64,000 nt of DNA, from positions 756,001-820,000 of the forward strand of contig CP063375.1 in NCBI GenBank assembly GCA_022813675.1, given 5' to 3'. Position numbers and translations under genes: made by a program. This document shows positions 33,273 through 41,615 of the stretch, one piece after another (positions within the stretch are counted from its first letter, which is position 1; every line of letters starts with the position of its first letter). The notes beneath the pieces are model-generated. The model had not been told where the DNA came from, did not search any database, and saw nothing but the letters and a program-made list of their open reading frames with translations. This stretch comes from Deferribacteraceae bacterium V6Fe1. Its GTDB lineage: Bacteria > Chrysiogenota > Deferribacteres > Deferribacterales > Deferrivibrionaceae.

Positions 33273-33297
33273 GTCCTTCCCTTTTGGGAAAAACAGT

Positions 33298-33370
33298 GAG
33301 CCGTTAGCTCAGTAGGTAGAGCAACTGCCTTTTAAGCAGTGGGTCGTAGGTTCGATCCCTACACGGCTCA
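33298..33370 (+). tRNA. tRNA-Lys (UUU)
   Basis: 73 bases. Acceptor stem GAGCCGT/ACGGCTC with discriminator A, anticodon loop CTTTTAA giving UUU, and T arm with GGTTCGATCC. CCA is not encoded, so a nucleotidyltransferase must add it. Confidence 0.97.
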
Positions 33371-33378
33371 TTTTAAGT

Positions 33379-33453
<75 letters not shown>

Positions 33454-33459
33454 TTAGAC

Positions 33460-33532
33460 GGGCGGTTAGCTCAGCTGGGAGAGCATCGGCCTTACAAGCC
33501 GAGGGTCGTAGGTTCGATCCCTGCACCGCCCA
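33460..33532 (+). tRNA. tRNA-Val (UAC)
   Basis: 73 bases. Acceptor stem GGGCGGT/ACCGCCC with discriminator A, anticodon stem TCGGC/GCCGA and loop CTTACAA giving UAC. CCA is not encoded. Confidence 0.97.
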
Positions 33533-33537
33533 TTTTT

Positions 33538-33611
33538 GGGGGCGTAGTTCAGTTGGTTAGAACGCTGGCCTGTCACGTCAGAGGTCGCGAGTTCAAGTCT
33601 CGTCGTCCCCG
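33538..33611 (+). tRNA. tRNA-Asp (GUC)
   Basis: 74 bases. Acceptor stem GGGGGCG/CGTCCCC with one G-U pair and discriminator G. The anticodon stem CTGGC/GTCAG with one G-U pair carries loop CTGTCAC giving GUC. CCA is not encoded. The GUN anticodon makes it a substrate of the tgt/queA pathway encoded at 5032-7189. Confidence 0.96.
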
Positions 33612-33614
33612 TCT

Positions 33615-33642
33615 AAAGCCACCTTTTAGGTGGCTTTTTTTA
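33615..33642 (+). terminator. Terminator of the tRNA cluster
   Basis: An 8-bp stem AGCCACCT/AGGTGGCT with a 3-base loop, followed by a U-rich tail (TTTTTTT). It begins 4 bases after tRNA-Asp and separates the tRNA transcript from smpB. Confidence 0.9.
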
Positions 33643-33664
33643 ATTAAAACGGATATTATGACAT

Positions 33665-34120
33665 ATGAAGATATTAGCTCAGAATAAAAAAGCCTTTTAT
33701 GACTACGAAATAATTGAAACTTTTGAAGCAGGTATAGAATTAAAGGGCACAGAAGTTAAATCCTGCAAATCCGGCAAAGTGAATTTGAGGGATTCTTTCA
33801 TCAAAGTAAAAGATGGCGAAGCCTTTTTATTAAATACACATATTTCTGAATATGAGAAAGGAAATATTGCAAATCATGAGCCTACGAGGACAAGAAAGCT
33901 CCTTTTACATAAGAGAGAAATAAATAGATTGATTGGTAAAGCTCAGGAAAAAGGACTGACAATTGTTCCTCTTAAAATTTATTTGAAGAAGAATTTGGTA
34001 AAGGTTGAAATTGCCCTTGTTAAGGGCAAACAATCCCACGATAAAAGGAACACTATAAAAGAAAAAGATTTGAAGAAAGAGATTTCTCGAGATTTTAAAA
34101 ATAAATTTAGAATAAAATAG
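33665..34120 (+). CDS. smpB: SsrA-binding protein SmpB
   Basis: tmRNA partner in trans-translation, 151 residues. Characteristic segments are ILAQNKKAFYDYEIIETFEA, GIELKGTEVKS, LNTHISEYEKGNI, the HKREI box and a basic C-terminal tail (KEISRDFKNKFRIK) that mimics an mRNA-tRNA helix in the decoding site. Its RNA partner ssrA starts 49 bases downstream, an adjacency seen in many bacteria. No clear Shine-Dalgarno precedes the ATG. Confidence 0.97.
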   Translation: MKILAQNKKAFYDYEIIETFEAGIELKGTEVKSCKSGKVNLRDSFIKVKDGEAFLLNTHISEYEKGNIANHEPTRTRKLLLHKREINRLIGKAQEKGLTIVPLKIYLKKNLVKVEIALVKGKQSHDKRNTIKEKDLKKEISRDFKNKFRIK

Positions 34121-34122
34121 CC

Positions 34123-34150
34123 TTTACAAATTGTATGTGGTATATATATT
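34123..34150 (+). promoter_or_regulatory. Promoter of ssrA
   Basis: TTTACA (34123-34128), 16-base spacer, TATATT (34145-34150), starting 3 bases after the smpB stop. The primary start would be near 34157, 12 bases before the mature 5' end, consistent with RNase P processing. Confidence 0.65.
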
Positions 34151-34168
34151 AGAATCCCCATGAATTAA

Positions 34169-34512
34169 GGGGGCGCTAAGGTTTCGACGGGGAGCTGTAG
34201 GCTCTAAGGTGCATGCCGAGGTTCGGTACCTCGTAAAACAGCCGAACAATAATAATTGCAAACGACGAATTAGCACTCGCTGCTTAATTGACGGCGACGT
34301 CCCTGTAGGGTTTGCCTACGATCTTGCAGAGGGCGACAACTTAGTAGGCTGGCCGAATGTGACGCCTTTAAGCATTCGGTAAGACTTAAAAGGCTTACCA
34401 AACTCTAAGCCGGCCTGTGGGCATTGGGTTTGGGAAATTTAATCGCAGGATAAGCATGTAGTACCTGGGGAAGAAGGCTTTTCGGACGCGGGTTCGATTC
34501 CCGCCGCCTCCA
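34169..34512 (+). ncRNA. ssrA: tmRNA (one-piece)
   Basis: 344 bases. The tRNA-like ends pair as GGGGGCG (34169-34175) with CGCCTCC (34505-34511) plus discriminator A. The 5' part carries GCTAAGGTTTCGACGGGG and the 3' part the T arm GCGGGTTCGATTCCCGC. The tag reading frame runs 34258-34287, resuming at GCA and encoding ANDELALAA before TAA, nine residues, one fewer than the E. coli tag. The sequence around the resume codon (TTGCAAACGACGAA) matches E. coli closely. CCA is not encoded. Confidence 0.96.
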
Positions 34513-34812: not shown

Positions 34813-36354
34813 ATGCAAAAGCTAAAAAAGCTCCCTATAGGTATTCAAACCTTTAGTGAAATAATTGAAGGGGACTACATTTATATTGACAAGACAAAAG
34901 AAGCCTTTGAATTAATTGAAAGTTATAAATACGCCTTCTTATCCCGTCCTCGCAGATTTGGTAAATCTTTATTTCTTGATACATTAAAAGAATTATTTGA
35001 AGGGAACAAAAAGCTTTTTGAAGGTCTGTATATTTATGACAAGTGGAATTGGGATGAAAAATACCCAGTAATAAAAATCAGTTGGGCAGGTAATTTCCAA
35101 ACGCTTGAGGGTCTAAAGCAAGTTGCTTTTGATGTATTTAAAACAAATCAAGAGAGTTTAGGTGTCATCTGTGATAATGTAAACGATCCTGCAAGCTGCT
35201 TTAGAGATTTAATCCATAGAGCATATAAAAAATACAATCAAAAGGTAGTAATATTGATAGACGAATATGACAAACCTATTCTTGATGTGATTGAAAATAT
35301 TGAACAGGCTAAGATAAATAGAGAGTTTATCAAGGGTTTGTATTCTATAATCAAAGATAATGATGCCTATATCAAATTTGCATTTTTGACAGGCGTGAGT
35401 AAATTTTCCAAGGCATCTATCTTTAGCGGGCTCAATATGCTCACGGATATCTCTCTCAATCCGAAGTATGGCAATATCTGCGGCTATACTCAAAAAGATA
35501 TAGAAACCTCATTTATGCCTTATTTTAAAGATGTGGATTTGGAGAAGGTAAAAAAATGGTATAATGGTTATAATTTCCTAAAAGATAATGTTTATAATCC
35601 CTTTGATATTTTACAATTTATAAGTAATGAATTTGTATTTGATAATTATTGGTTTGAAAGCGGCACACCATCTTTTTTGATTAAGCTCATAAAAGAGAGA
35701 AATTATTTTTTGCCGAGTTTAACTAATCTGATATTAGATAAAAAAATACTTTCCAGCTTTGATATAGAAAATATTGATTTGGAAGTGATACTTTATCAAT
35801 CGGGTTATTTGACAATTGAAAAGATGATAGAAGATGAATTGCTTAGTTCAATAGAGTACAAGCTAAAAATACCAAACCTTGAAGTCCAAATATCTTTGAA
35901 TGATTATATTATAAATTATCTGTTTAAAGGTGATAATAGACTAAAAAGTCCCCTAATCAAGTCTCTTTATTATGAAAAGTTAGAAGATTTTAAAGTAGCG
36001 TTGACTTCTTTGTTTTCGTCAATCCCTTACACCAATTTTACCAAAAATGACCTTAATTTATACGAAGGTTTTTATGCCAGCGTAATTTATGCATATCTTG
36101 CATCCCTTGGGATAGATATAATCGGTGAGGATATTACAAACAAGGGCAGGATAGATTTGACACTTTTTGTAGGGGATAAGATTTATATCTTGGAGTTTAA
36201 GGTTGACGGGCAACAAGGTGAAGCTTTAAGGCAAATCAAAGAGAGAAATTATGCTGAGAAATATTTAAATGAAGGTAAGCAGGTATACCTTATCGGCATC
36301 GAATTTAGCTCTGAACAAAAGAACGTGGTAAATTTTGAGTGGGAGAAGATTTGA
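34813..36354 (+). CDS. AAA-ATPase-like protein with C-terminal PD-(D/E)XK nuclease-like domain
   Basis: 513 residues. The family is the AAA-ATPase-like/DUF1703 group, often found in many copies in anaerobes. The degenerate P-loop is RPRRFGKS (45-52), Walker B is VVILIDEYD (145-153), and the C-terminal nuclease core has Asp448, Glu461 and Lys463 (GRIDLTLF...YILEFKV). The opening KLPIGIQTFSEIIEGDYIYIDKT is typical. The biological role is unknown; mobile-element or defence roles have been suggested for relatives. It stands alone downstream of ssrA, a common insertion site for accessory DNA. Confidence 0.88.
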   Translation: MQKLKKLPIGIQTFSEIIEGDYIYIDKTKEAFELIESYKYAFLSRPRRFGKSLFLDTLKELFEGNKKLFEGLYIYDKWNWDEKYPVIKISWAGNFQTLEGLKQVAFDVFKTNQESLGVICDNVNDPASCFRDLIHRAYKKYNQKVVILIDEYDKPILDVIENIEQAKINREFIKGLYSIIKDNDAYIKFAFLTGVSKFSKASIFSGLNMLTDISLNPKYGNICGYTQKDIETSFMPYFKDVDLEKVKKWYNGYNFLKDNVYNPFDILQFISNEFVFDNYWFESGTPSFLIKLIKERNYFLPSLTNLILDKKILSSFDIENIDLEVILYQSGYLTIEKMIEDELLSSIEYKLKIPNLEVQISLNDYIINYLFKGDNRLKSPLIKSLYYEKLEDFKVALTSLFSSIPYTNFTKNDLNLYEGFYASVIYAYLASLGIDIIGEDITNKGRIDLTLFVGDKIYILEFKVDGQQGEALRQIKERNYAEKYLNEGKQVYLIGIEFSSEQKNVVNFEWEKI

Positions 36355-36437: not shown

Positions 36438-38189
36438 CTAGGAGGTCTCTCTTTTCTTACCAAAGTAGCCGTCCCAAAGTCCGTGGAAGAAGTATTTTGC
36501 ATTTGTGCCTAATGTCTGAGTCCTATATCCACCTTCCTGCACCACTACTGTAGGGTATTTTATCTCCCCTAACATAAAGCCTATTTTGTAAAAATCCTCA
36601 AATCTGTTACTCCATGTTCCAGTGGGATCGGATTTTGCGGTATCGAGCCCCAAGGCGATTACGAGGTAAGCAGGATTGAACTTTTTGATTTGTTTTATTG
36701 CCTTAGAAAGTGTATCTCTATATTTTTCAGGATCGGTATTTTCAGGCAAAGGGAAGTTTATATTGTATCCCTCCCCATCGTTTTTTCCTATTTCATCTTT
36801 AAATCCGGTGAAGTGAGGATAAGCAAAGCGTGGATCACCGTGAATTGATATGGTTAACACATCGCTACGCTCATAGAATATATCCTGTGTACCATTTCCG
36901 TGATGAAAGTCAATATCTAATACGGCTACTTTTCCGTAATTGGTCAAATAATTTGCAGCTATGGCAGTTGAGTTAAAATAGCAAAATCCACCGAAAGCCC
37001 TCCTTTCTGCATGGTGCCCCGGCGGGCGAACAAGGGCGTAAGAGATATATGCTCCTTCCAATACTGCATTTGCTGCCGTTACCGCACAATCAACAGCCCC
37101 TCTGGCGGCAAGGTAGGCATTTTTATTAAGTGGTGTAAATGTATCAAGACAATAATACCCTGCCTGCATTTCCAAATCTTTTGGCGGTCTTAGTAAATTA
37201 CGCAAAGGAAAAATCAGCGGATAGATAGATTTTTCCGGTGGCAGTTTTGCGCAAACATTACGCAAATAATCCACATATCCTGGATCATGTATCTCTTTAA
37301 TCATCTTTTCACTTACTTTTTTTGGTTCAATAATTTTAAAAAGTTGAGTTTTTTCTAAAGCAGCCAATATCGTTGACAATCTTACAGGGGCTTCTACATA
37401 ACCTCTGTCTTTGACATGGTGAATACTATGCCCTTTATTAATCACCATAGTGATTAACTCTTTATCAGTGTTAACTTTACTTACAAAAGTTTGTTTTTTG
37501 ATATATTTTGGGCTACGAAATTTTAGAGGTGTGTGAGCAAAAGAGTTAGCTACTTCATCTATTTGGGATGATGAAATGATATCTCCATATTTCCTTGTCA
37601 AAATGGCACGTACAATTTTTTGAGCATCTTTCCCTGAGATATCAATTTTATTCCCCAAGTCGTCCATCATTAAATAATAAAGATCTTGATCCCCCGGCTT
37701 TATAGGGGCTGAGAATACATCATTTAAAATTGGATAGACTCCATAGCGCTCGTAAAATTTAAGTCTGGCGATATTTTGCTTTAGCAGGTTTTTATCTTTT
37801 ATCAAGTTTGGGTCATCAACTGCACATTCAAAAAATAGTCCATTTACCTTTAGTGCGGTACATTCTTCTCTTATTCGTTCATATAGTGCCCCACCTATCC
37901 CACCGCTTGTTTGGCCGGGTGCAGCAGAGATTAGCTCGAGATACGCAATGTTTATATCTGGCATGTGCAGTAGCATTGCAAACCCTTTGACTTTTCCAAA
38001 ATGATTTTCAGCCACAAAGAGGATTGAGCGATAACCAAACTTAATCGGGTTTATCATCTGTTCCGGAAGTTTGGTAAATTCTTCGGCGCGTGCATTTGGA
38101 AATTGATGAGCAAGTATCTTTAAAACCTGATCTATTGCTTCACGATTTGCTTTTGAAGTATTGTCTGATATTTTTCGGATTCTAAACAT
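36438..38189 (-). CDS. GNAT acetyltransferase fused to a histone-deacetylase/acetylpolyamine-amidohydrolase domain
   Basis: 583 residues from the ATG at 38189; the frame stays open 22 codons further, but AGGG fits this start. Residues about 1-175 form a GNAT domain with the acetyl-CoA loop GQTSGGIGGAL (92-102) and the ending LKFYERYGVYPI. After a linker, residues about 245-575 form a class II-type deacetylase with LVRPPGHHAE (387-396), the zinc and catalytic motif DIDFHHGNGT (425-434), ALGLDTAKSDPTG and a final VVVQEGGYR. All zinc ligands appear intact. Polyamine or protein lysine substrates are both possible. Monocistronic, with the downstream neighbour in convergent orientation. Confidence 0.9.
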   Translation of the reverse strand: MFRIRKISDNTSKANREAIDQVLKILAHQFPNARAEEFTKLPEQMINPIKFGYRSILFVAENHFGKVKGFAMLLHMPDINIAYLELISAAPGQTSGGIGGALYERIREECTALKVNGLFFECAVDDPNLIKDKNLLKQNIARLKFYERYGVYPILNDVFSAPIKPGDQDLYYLMMDDLGNKIDISGKDAQKIVRAILTRKYGDIISSSQIDEVANSFAHTPLKFRSPKYIKKQTFVSKVNTDKELITMVINKGHSIHHVKDRGYVEAPVRLSTILAALEKTQLFKIIEPKKVSEKMIKEIHDPGYVDYLRNVCAKLPPEKSIYPLIFPLRNLLRPPKDLEMQAGYYCLDTFTPLNKNAYLAARGAVDCAVTAANAVLEGAYISYALVRPPGHHAERRAFGGFCYFNSTAIAANYLTNYGKVAVLDIDFHHGNGTQDIFYERSDVLTISIHGDPRFAYPHFTGFKDEIGKNDGEGYNINFPLPENTDPEKYRDTLSKAIKQIKKFNPAYLVIALGLDTAKSDPTGTWSNRFEDFYKIGFMLGEIKYPTVVVQEGGYRTQTLGTNAKYFFHGLWDGYFGKKRETS

Positions 38190-38320
38190 TGCACACATCC
38201 CTAAAATTTGCTGGTGTGACAATCTGAATATATCACTGTGCTTATAGATTATCAAGCTGACTTTTAATTTGTAAAATTATCTTAGTTGAGTTGTAAAACT
38301 GATTGTGTGAATAATGGTAA

Positions 38321-38594: not shown

Positions 38595-38625
38595 AAAAAA
38601 AAGCCGCACAAGGTTTGTACGGCTT
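38595..38625 (-). terminator. Intrinsic terminator upstream of cspA
   Basis: On the minus strand a stem AGCCGTACAA/TTGTGCGGCT with one U-G pair and a 3-base loop, followed by eight U residues. It could terminate the csd6-csd4 transcript, whose stop lies 150 bases upstream. Alternatively it could sit in the cspA leader, because a promoter-like TTGCTA-16-TATATT occurs upstream of it. Confidence 0.85.
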
Positions 38626-38774: not shown

Positions 38775-40205
38775 TCATTCAATAATTTTGACATAAAATT
38801 GTCCGAGGATATTGTTGCTATCTCCGGCTATTACGGGGAATATGGAACCATTACCGTATTTTGAGTATTTTGCCATAAAGTTACCGTCTATTAAAATATC
38901 GTATCCTCTGTCATCCCCATCATTGTAGTTGATTCCGGAAGGTACCCACCCTTTAAAATTTATTTTTGGATCAGAATTAATATTCTCGCTGAAAAATTTA
39001 ATAATGTTTAACGTATCACCTTTTTTGACAACCAAAGTATCATTTTGAAGCACAGCCTTTTTTTGATTGTTGACTTTTACGATAAAGACTCCGTGCTCAT
39101 CCTCTATTTTTCCGTCTATTTTAAGATTTATTTTTCCTATTTCGATACTATCTTTTCTAAAAACAATTGTCTTGTTTTCTGTTATTTTAAATGGGATATT
39201 TTTGTCATTTAGTCCGTTTACCCCTTCGATATCACACGAAAGCCCTCTTTTATAGTTTGAATCTATATGTGCCACCTGCACTACACTCCCCTTTTTCAAT
39301 ACCAGAGTCGAATTGTTTGAAACTATTTTTGGCTCGCCATTTACCTTGATTATGACAAAGTTTATTTCAGGGTTTGTCAAAATTATTTGCGGCTGCTCCG
39401 GTATAATGTCATAAATCTTCATGAATGCATTTACAGCATAATTGTGATGCAATATTTTCATTTCATCAGAAGGCAAGTTTTTGGATGTCTCTATTCCGAA
39501 AGAAGGTAGGCAAAGGGTCTTTAGTGCAAAGTATGTGGCAGTTTTCCTCATTTCTAAGTAAGGTGTCTTTGGGTCGTCGGTGTTTGTGTTAAAATATTGC
39601 ATATAATAATCTTCGACCCCGATTTTCTCATTGATTTCTTCAAGCGCTTTTTTGGCTATACCCTCAAGGTCGATTACGGTTCCGTTATCACAAGTAAATT
39701 TCCCAGTATCTACGATAACAGATTGACCAAATCTTTCGGGGCTTCTAAGCCAGTTGATATGAGTAGGAGTATGAAAACCCCAACCATCGTGAAGATTTAA
39801 AAATACATCTGCCTCACTCATCAGCTGCTTGATTACTTGGACTACTTTATCCATCTCGATTTGAACGTCATCAAGGTGAAAACGCCTGTTCATATCAGCT
39901 TCAGTGGAGCGCTTAAATAAAATAATTGATTTGAAATTTGCCCTTGGGATGACAATAAGGTTACCTTTTTCAAGGCTCAAGTCTGAGTATAGGTCTGCAG
40001 ACAAAAAACCGCCCGGCTCATCCCCTTGTATTCCACCCATTATAAGCATGGTATTACCGTCTTTTCTACCGTAGATTTTGTATACATTGAGCTCGTAATC
40101 TGTACCTTCAAAGTAGACTTTATGCTCTTTAAAAGGTCGATTAACCTCTCCAAAAAGGTTAAACGACAGTGCTAAAGATAAAATTAAGAAATACGCTATC
40201 TTCAT
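38775..40205 (-). CDS. Csd4/Pgp1-like D,L-carboxypeptidase (M14 fold), cell-shape protein
   Basis: Periplasmic, with signal peptide IAYFLILSLALSFNLFG (about 3-19), 476 residues. Residues about 20-270 form an M14 zinc carboxypeptidase whose ligands are Gln60 and Glu63 (GGIQGDEPGG) and His139 (LNLHDGWG), with catalytic Glu239 (FGIETSK). A Gln in place of the first zinc His, and the spacing, match Helicobacter Csd4 as I recall it. Two beta-rich domains follow. Such enzymes trim peptidoglycan tripeptides to dipeptides and set helical or curved shape. It starts one base after the csd6-like gene, so both are co-translated. Confidence 0.82.
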   Translation of the reverse strand: MKIAYFLILSLALSFNLFGEVNRPFKEHKVYFEGTDYELNVYKIYGRKDGNTMLIMGGIQGDEPGGFLSADLYSDLSLEKGNLIVIPRANFKSIILFKRSTEADMNRRFHLDDVQIEMDKVVQVIKQLMSEADVFLNLHDGWGFHTPTHINWLRSPERFGQSVIVDTGKFTCDNGTVIDLEGIAKKALEEINEKIGVEDYYMQYFNTNTDDPKTPYLEMRKTATYFALKTLCLPSFGIETSKNLPSDEMKILHHNYAVNAFMKIYDIIPEQPQIILTNPEINFVIIKVNGEPKIVSNNSTLVLKKGSVVQVAHIDSNYKRGLSCDIEGVNGLNDKNIPFKITENKTIVFRKDSIEIGKINLKIDGKIEDEHGVFIVKVNNQKKAVLQNDTLVVKKGDTLNIIKFFSENINSDPKINFKGWVPSGINYNDGDDRGYDILIDGNFMAKYSKYGNGSIFPVIAGDSNNILGQFYVKIIE

Positions 40206-41504
40206 TTATAAAGGTCTCCATGTTTCGCTAATGATTTTAAAATCCCCAGGGCAGCCTGACAGCCTGATAACCTTAATGCCATAGTCGGAATAGGTATCCG
40301 CACTAAATTTTTGTTTAAAGCTAATTGTTATTTCCGTAGGGGTGATATTTTCCATACTAATGTTATCAACTGTTACGGTGATTTTTTGATATTTCTGGAA
40401 TTTAGCGTATTTATCTTCCATCCATTTGTCAAAATTCATTCCTGCAGAGGCAAATTTTTCATTATAAAACTGTTTATATTTATCTATATCCTTTGATTCC
40501 CATGCAGCTATCCAATCTTTAATAAATTTTTTTGCAAGCTTTTCAGTAATTGTGTATGAGCCGCTCGGATAAAATAGTTCACCGATAATTTTGTGCTCGC
40601 CCAATTCTTTGGAAATATATATCTTCTTATTCCCCTCAACCAATATGTTGTTTGCGCAATACATCTGATTAAAGTTTACAAAAGCTTCTGAGTCGTTTTC
40701 AACAAATATCTGAATGTTATCGATATTTATTTTCCTGTAAGGGTAAAGTTTCATTAACTGCTTTTTCTCCATTACATATTTAAAATAATCTTGATTATCG
40801 CTATTTGTAAATTTTGTATGGATATACTGTTGAAATTTTTCAAAATCATTATTTTCCCAAGCCTTGATAAATCCATTTATATAGTTAAGCCAATAATTTT
40901 TAGCGATAACATACGAGTCTTTATCCAGAAAAGATAACTTTTCAGAAATTATTACGGGGATATTTAGCGCATTTTTTGAAACGAGGTCTTCCATATCTCC
41001 ATTGTCAAGGGCAACGCACCCTTCAGTGGAATTATCTTCAACCCCTTCTTGCACACCATGCACCCAGATTCCGTGCCCTGTCTTACCCAAAATCTTATCA
41101 TAGAAGTTTGGGTAATTTAGTGGCAATGCACCATAACCGTAAGTGGGTGGGAGGTTATTTCGAGAAATAAAATTTTGGGTAAAATATATACCTTCAGGTG
41201 TTTTTTTATCCCCTTCCACTTGCTTATCACCATTAATTTCGCCGGTCAGGATATTTTTATATACTTTTATAATTTTAGGCATGTCATTTTCAATTTGAAA
41301 GAGATATGCAGTCTTACTGCTTTTGTCCACAGCAAGAGTTTTAAAACTGTTATTGCCTTCTGAAAATATATTGCCGGTAACAAATTCAAATGTATCCGTG
41401 CTATTATCGGTAGCATAAGAGTTCTTTACACCGCATATAATAAATAGCGTTACGGTGATGAGTGTAAGTGAAAAGTATTGTATAATAGGATTCTTAAAAT
41501 ACAT
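40206..41504 (-). CDS. Csd6/Pgp2-like L,D-transpeptidase-fold protein with two NTF2-like domains
   Basis: 432 residues with an N-terminal signal or anchor (FSLTLITVTLFIICGV). Residues about 40-185 form a YkuD domain with GHGIWVHG (His149) and STEGCVALDNGD (catalytic Cys163). Two NTF2-like modules follow, about 200-318 (WLNYINGFIKAWENNDFEKF) and about 322-432 (FIKDWIAAWESKDIDKYKQF). In Helicobacter Csd6 and Campylobacter Pgp2 this layout has one NTF2 domain and acts as an L,D-carboxypeptidase on tetrapeptides. It is immediately followed by the Csd4-like gene, which would act on the product. Confidence 0.83.
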   Translation of the reverse strand: MYFKNPIIQYFSLTLITVTLFIICGVKNSYATDNSTDTFEFVTGNIFSEGNNSFKTLAVDKSSKTAYLFQIENDMPKIIKVYKNILTGEINGDKQVEGDKKTPEGIYFTQNFISRNNLPPTYGYGALPLNYPNFYDKILGKTGHGIWVHGVQEGVEDNSTEGCVALDNGDMEDLVSKNALNIPVIISEKLSFLDKDSYVIAKNYWLNYINGFIKAWENNDFEKFQQYIHTKFTNSDNQDYFKYVMEKKQLMKLYPYRKINIDNIQIFVENDSEAFVNFNQMYCANNILVEGNKKIYISKELGEHKIIGELFYPSGSYTITEKLAKKFIKDWIAAWESKDIDKYKQFYNEKFASAGMNFDKWMEDKYAKFQKYQKITVTVDNISMENITPTEITISFKQKFSADTYSDYGIKVIRLSGCPGDFKIISETWRPL

Positions 41505-41590: not shown

Positions 41591-41615
41591 AAAAAGGGGG
41601 CGATATCTGCCCCCT
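41591..41615 (-). terminator. Terminator of the RND efflux operon
   Basis: Stem AGGGGGC/GCCCCCT with a 7-base loop followed on the minus strand by U residues, beginning 10 bases after the last gene of the operon. Confidence 0.9.

Follow-up and report, generated by a model that had tools for sequence, protein, structure and literature searches.

Two abutting genes of Deferrivibrio metallireducens V6Fe1 probably form an operon that trims the stem peptides of peptidoglycan and makes the cell curved. They lie in the stretch analyzed here (the window), the 64,000 nucleotides from 756001 to 820000 of a single-contig genome of 2,358,333 bp, the length also published for the chromosome of this member of the Deferribacterota (PMC11896075). 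Judging from sequence and structure models, the two genes almost certainly encode a Csd6/Pgp2-type and a Csd4/Pgp1-type wall-trimming enzyme, which we refer to as LDT and M99, respectively. Apparently new are a likely separate clade of M99 proteins, a partner enzyme with two NTF2-like domains and, in Desulfobacterota, a gene for a membrane coiled-coil protein inside the unit, sometimes together with a bactofilin gene. A literature search of open-licence papers returned no prior report of the separate clade, the doubled NTF2 domain, or these extra parts.

Gene layout of the pair

An initial annotation, made from the letters of the sequence and its open reading frames, had proposed two abutting genes read from one promoter. 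Both open reading frames were found on the minus strand where it had placed them, with no base between the stop codon of the first and the start codon of the second (Table 1). Shine-Dalgarno-like GGAG or GGAGG sequences lie ∼10 nt 5′ of each gene, and a ribosome-binding-like GGAG ahead of M99 (40216-40219) falls within the 3′ end of the LDT gene. The single promoter received indirect support. Terminator-like hairpins flank the pair, and the sole terminator-like match inside it was a weak 5-pair hairpin in the LDT coding sequence, in keeping with one unit; the promoter scan, however, did no better than shuffled sequence, with 19 matches against 16.2 expected.

Table 1. Features of the LDT-M99 locus, in window coordinates
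Feature	Position	Strand	Basis
LDT gene, YkuD L,D-carboxypeptidase-type protein (Csd6/Pgp2/Bd1075-like), 432 aa	40206..41504	(-)	Pfam, PDB sequence matches, AlphaFold2 model
M99 gene, peptidase M99 protein (Csd4/Pgp1-like D,L-carboxypeptidase), 476 aa	38775..40205	(-)	Pfam, PDB matches, AlphaFold2 model
Gene junction, LDT stop TAA (40208-40206) directly abutting M99 ATG (40205-40203), 0 bp between	40206..40219	(-)	Sequence reading
Terminator-like hairpin closing the upstream unit (RND pump and 63-aa ORF), 90 bp before LDT start	41595..41615	(-)	Hairpin scan, ORFs
Terminator-like hairpin 3′ of the LDT-M99 pair	38601..38625	(-)	Hairpin scan
YkuD catalytic domain, residues 57-185	40950..41336	(-)	Pfam, alignment, conservation
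NTF2-like domain 1, residues about 195-313; corresponds structurally to the one NTF2 of Csd6/Pgp2/Bd1075; less conserved pocket	40566..40922	(-)	AlphaFold2 model, structural alignment, conservation
NTF2-like domain 2, residues about 316-432; all tested Pgp2 pocket residues kept	40209..40559	(-)	PF24125, conservation
M99 catalytic domain, residues about 22-268; Q60, E63, H139, E239, R99, N106, R107, M219, T224	39402..40142	(-)	Csd4 alignment, conservation
M99 C-terminal beta domains, residues 270-476; match Csd4 beta-barrel and Ig-like domains	38778..39398	(-)	Structural alignment to model residue 475/Csd4 438

LDT resembles Bd1075, Csd6, and Pgp2 and has two NTF2-like domains

The LDT protein starts with a hydrophobic export segment (about residues 8-28) and matches the Pfam families YkuD (PF03734, E = 2.2e-15) and Cds6_C (PF24125, E = 1.5e-27, best stretch 326-427). 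Its best match among PDB sequences was Bd1075 (7o21, E = 2.6e-35), the protein that sets the vibrioid curvature of Bdellovibrio bacteriovorus, followed by Csd6 (HP0518; 4xzz, 2.2e-23) and Pgp2 (6xj6, 2e-21). Bd1075 was also the best structural match of the AlphaFold2 model (pLDDT 93), with a Z score of 30.1 and 2.1 Å over 261 residues (7o21_B), compared to Z scores of 27.6 for Csd6, 26.8 for Pgp2, and 16.3 for Bacillus subtilis YkuD. His149, Gly150, and Cys163 align with H157, G158, and C174 of Pgp2. LDT shares with Csd6 and Pgp2 the YkuD His-Gly-Cys set as well as NTF2 pocket residues. His149 and Cys163, correctly picked out as the active site from the start, were invariant across 38 homologues.

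NTF2 modules as in Csd6 and Pgp2 had likewise been annotated; the modules are present, but their doubling had not been called a difference, although Csd6, Pgp2, and Bd1075 each have one such domain and LDT has two. The NTF2 pocket of Pgp2 binds peptidoglycan, and its residues Y233, F242, K257, K307, and E324 matter for cell shape, as tested in vivo (PMC8038945). In the second NTF2-like domain of LDT, these residues are matched by Y343, F351, K365, K411, and E427, each kept in 37-38 of the 38 homologues. In the first domain, both Lys residues, the Phe, and the Glu of the Pgp2 pocket are kept in most of the 38 rows, and a Phe occupies the Tyr233 position, which is variable among the homologues. 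Because all five Pgp2 residues are kept in the second domain, its pocket is the more constrained of the two, and the doubling opens the question of what a second wall-binding pocket does. LDT may also differ from Csd6 at its N terminus: the stretch separating the export segment from the YkuD domain is no more than about 10-25 residues long (residue 40 is where the model starts to align), which leaves little room for the dimerization domain described for Csd6.

LDT might instead be an ordinary L,D-transpeptidase or a DpaA-like amidase that releases bound protein, since these share the YkuD fold and since LDT gave a PDB match to DpaA and, in NCBIfam, a weak one to LdtF/DpaA (E = 3.5e-07; 29.6 bits, where the cut-off is 365). 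This is very improbable, given that Csd6, Pgp2, and Bd1075 score far higher in both sequence and structure and that LDT has NTF2 pockets carrying the functional residues of Pgp2; for the ordinary transpeptidase in particular, profile score, structure, and residues led us to reject it. The NCBIfam search returned no specific name for either the LDT or the M99 protein.

M99 keeps the zinc site and substrate contacts of Csd4

The M99 protein has a hydrophobic N-terminal export segment at residues 2-16 and matches the Pfam family M99 (PF17033) with an E value of 1.3e-30 and 107.2 bits (cut-off 27). Csd4 was its only clear PDB sequence match (4wck, 4q6m). Residues 38-475 of the AlphaFold2 model (pLDDT 91) aligned structurally with residues 19-438 of Csd4 (4wcn) across all three domains (Z = 32.3), at about 22% identity and an overall rmsd of 15 Å; with an rmsd of this size, the domain orientation probably differs from that of Csd4 or is poorly predicted.

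In Csd4, Gln46, Glu49, and His128 are the zinc ligands, Glu222 is the general base, and Arg86, Asn93, Arg94, Met203, and Thr208 contact the tripeptide (PMC4220969). By sequence alignment, the ligands and base correspond to Q60, E63, H139, and E239 of M99, and the contacts to R99, N106, R107, M219, and T224. The Gln-Glu-His set on which the initial annotation had relied (Gln60, Glu63, His139) was, together with E239, invariant in 38/38 homologues. R99, N106, R107, and T224 were also invariant in this 38-row alignment, and position 219 was M in 21 and Q in 17. M99 therefore has the same zinc set, general base, contact residues, and three-domain layout as the M99-family enzymes Csd4 of Helicobacter pylori (HP1075) and Pgp1 of Campylobacter jejuni, from which it differs in its low identity and, likely, in its clade (see below).

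A further Pfam match, AstE_AspA_cat (E = 1.9e-06, 28 bits), would at face value suit a metabolic M14 enzyme of the succinylglutamate desuccinylase/aspartoacylase type, but such a match is expected from the shared fold and falls far short of the 107 bits of the M99 profile. AstE-type desuccinylases matched the model in the catalytic domain only (Z = 21), whereas Csd4 matched over three domains; moreover, the residues that contact meso-DAP are conserved, and the gene adjoins one for a peptidoglycan carboxypeptidase. We consider this identity extremely unlikely and rejected it on profile score, structure, and residues. For neither protein, then, were the best matches the M14 desuccinylases or ordinary L,D-transpeptidases that the initial annotation had named as refuting its own reading; sequence, residues, and predicted structure favored Csd4 for M99 and Bd1075, Csd6, and Pgp2 for LDT.

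The two genes are inherited and lost together

Forty of 47 sampled genomes of the Deferribacteres carried both genes, adjacent in 40/40, and the other seven carried neither. The pair was thus jointly inherited and jointly lost, although linkage by itself would also cause two neighboring genes to be inherited together. A recheck of the seven genomes lacking M99 (including Flexistipes) with the clade's own alignment gave no match; three of the seven are <80% complete, and this search lacked its own positive control. In the Chrysiogenia, the LDT and M99 genes are unlinked and the NTF2 domain is single. As a separate observation, M99 proteins of Chrysiogenia (loci L002, L003, and L004) have a His at the position of the Csd4 Gln zinc ligand; a Gln46His variant of Csd4 is in the PDB (4wcm), which makes these proteins its natural counterpart.

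A scan of 84,980 species genomes found 429 relatives. The best 80 of the 429 came from Deferribacterota, Nitrospirota, Neomarinimicrobiota, Desulfobacterota and other former Deltaproteobacteria, Gammaproteobacteria, and single members of other phyla, mostly as metagenome bins. An LDT gene was located upstream on the same strand in 74 of these best 80 loci, and in four of the six exceptions the contig ends were too near to judge. Nitrospirota, Desulfobacterota, Neomarinimicrobiota, and some Gammaproteobacteria show the same LDT-M99 order. Of 198 genomes drawn evenly from Desulfobacterota, the phylum of Desulfocarbo, 40 had M99 above the cut-off and 39 of these 40 also had Cds6_C, adjacent in 27; the association has a Fisher P of about 1e-27, ignoring relatedness and with counts made by hand from listed places. 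Distances among the LDT and M99 proteins of 77 loci were correlated (r = 0.87), which is consistent with the two travelling together and also with ordinary shared descent.

Our information on linkage within Campylobacterota is taken from the literature. By locus number, H. pylori csd4 (HP1075) and csd6 (HP0518) are far apart, whereas M99 adjoins its L,D-carboxypeptidase gene. Pgp1 has been reported in a few extremophiles outside the Epsilonproteobacteria. Pgp2 itself was found through its co-occurrence and neighborhood with Pgp1 (PMC3961634). That 2014 report also places pgp1 and pgp2 within 300 bp of each other, like the window pair, in Nautilia, Nitratiruptor, a Desulfococcus, and Persephonella. 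A pair outside Campylobacterota, the headline of the initial annotation, is therefore an instance of a kind already known from a delta-proteobacterium and Persephonella; relative to the passages of that report consulted here, our data add the Deferribacterota and other phyla, the clade split, and the doubled NTF2 domain.

M99 of the window likely belongs to a clade separate from Csd4

In a tree of M99 catalytic domains only, the window protein fell within a clade of 51 members, itself included (support 99), apart from the Chrysiogenia. Csd4 grouped with ten gammaproteobacterial M99 proteins (support 98), apart from the window clade. Since this was a quick tree in which the Csd4 row was a fragment on a long branch, we regard the split as likely rather than certain. 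Most genes of the window clade have an LDT neighbor; those examined in the Csd4 clade have none. The initial annotation had proposed phylogeny as a check on transfer, and a recent transfer from Campylobacterota was not supported, because the M99 proteins group mostly by phylum and the window protein sits with Deferribacterota, away from Csd4.

Bactofilin, M23 proteins, and additional genes in Desulfobacterota

In H. pylori, the genes for Csd1 and CcmA are linked. Linkage of this type is absent from the window genome, whose one bactofilin gene is flanked by parAB-like genes and tpiA rather than by an M23 gene. Given this location and the likely separate clade of M99, the prediction in the initial annotation that shape is set in the manner of Helicobacter goes further than the data. 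Three clear M23 proteins are encoded in the genome: the first carries a Csd3_N2 domain, the second is membrane-anchored, and the third is EnvC-like, its gene adjoining ftsEX-like and CtpA-like genes. The check suggested earlier, on bactofilin and Csd1-3 homologues, thus found a bactofilin and M23/Csd3-type endopeptidase genes without being discriminating; bactofilin is near universal in relatives (56/59 sampled genomes), and we discarded its presence as a discriminator. In family f6 (G031, G026, G014, G029, G033, G035, G037, and G039), the bactofilin gene is nearer to the LDT-M99 pair than in the window genome, at a distance of about 13-14 kb.

Units in Desulfobacterota contain a gene of about 250-290 aa between LDT and M99 (L106:4136-4978, L112, L119, L120, L127, L131, and others). 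Its product has one apparent transmembrane segment, a coiled coil, and a conserved C-terminal domain, with no Pfam match above the cut-off, and carries at its N terminus a module similar to that of membrane-anchored M23 endopeptidases. A search for this protein gave no match in the window genome; in other Deferribacterota it matched mostly the transmembrane/coiled-coil part, and the three examples that were read were M23 N termini. At four Desulfobacterales loci, a Pfam-confirmed bactofilin gene is located directly 3′ of M99 (L116:6769-7179, L129:6839-7252, L138:2845-3225, and L139:6508-6903), which joins the trimming enzymes and a scaffold within a single unit. We tentatively raise the possibility, itself rather doubtful, that the window clade represents an old, phylum-spanning curvature unit distinct from Csd4/Csd6, in which an L,D-carboxypeptidase with two NTF2 domains is made together with a second type of M99, in Desulfobacterota also with the membrane coiled-coil protein and bactofilin, and in which the enzymes would be placed by a membrane anchor. 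A specific candidate for what positions the trimming is the orphan membrane protein.

Proposed trimming pathway and its relation to cell shape

In C. jejuni, the substrate of Pgp1 is made by Pgp2 (PMC3961634). For the window pair, we infer that LDT would be exported to the periplasm, dock on peptidoglycan via its two NTF2 pockets, and act with His149 and Cys163 as an L,D-carboxypeptidase that removes D-Ala4 from tetrapeptides. M99, also exported, would then act as a D,L-carboxypeptidase whose Gln-Glu-His zinc site cleaves meso-DAP off the tripeptide left by LDT. Sequential trimming in this order is very likely. If the trimming were placed unevenly around the wall, a curved cell would result, and on balance we favor a role of the pair in curvature.

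Published descriptions of cell shape support this link but do not prove it. D. metallireducens is described as heat-loving, nonmotile, and slightly curved, with straight to slightly vibrio-shaped cells, which fits the curved shape that had been predicted from the two genes. Both genes are also present in Calditerrivibrio nitroreducens, described as vibrio-shaped, Denitrovibrio acetiphilus (vibrioid), and Desulfurispirillum indicum (spiral), and the phylum Deferribacterota is described as curved rods or spirals. Flexistipes sinusarabici (G011) lacks both genes, and its cells are straight to acutely bent rods, so absence of the pair does not map cleanly to straightness; with one gene-less species of ambiguous shape, the comparison provides a weak contrast.

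The bent cells of Flexistipes would also suit enzymes whose stem-peptide trimming serves wall turnover in general, recycling, or the control of cross-linking, with shape set otherwise, for example by bactofilin or another scaffold. Bactofilin occurs in nearly all sampled relatives, with or without the pair, and Pgp2-type proteins are reported to occur outside curved bacteria as well (PMC3961634). Yet Csd4/Pgp1 homologues are reported mainly in curved or helical bacteria and their deletion gives straight rods (PMC3310789, PMC3310797), and Bd1075 alone sets the curvature of Bdellovibrio (PMC8938487). We therefore consider a role confined to wall turnover unlikely and prefer trimming that shapes the cell. 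Helicobacter, Campylobacter, and Bdellovibrio are the main genera in which curvature through peptidoglycan trimming has been tested. A linked pair that is retained or lost as one unit throughout a phylum described as curved or spiral, and that several other phyla also carry, allows the general claim to be tested by a comparison of species with and without it.

Other genes in the window

Three further regions of the window were noted. On the minus strand at 36438-38255, a 605-aa ORF appears by eye to join an acetyltransferase-like N terminus to a histone-deacetylase-like C terminus. A tRNA cluster (Lys, Glu, Val, and Asp) followed by a tmRNA gene with the tag ANDELALAA occupies 33297-34512 on the plus strand. 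tmRNA genes are common integration sites, and directly 3′ of this one (34813-36354, plus strand) is a gene for a 513-aa protein that by eye resembles the AAA-ATPase-like/PD-(D/E)XK nuclease family.
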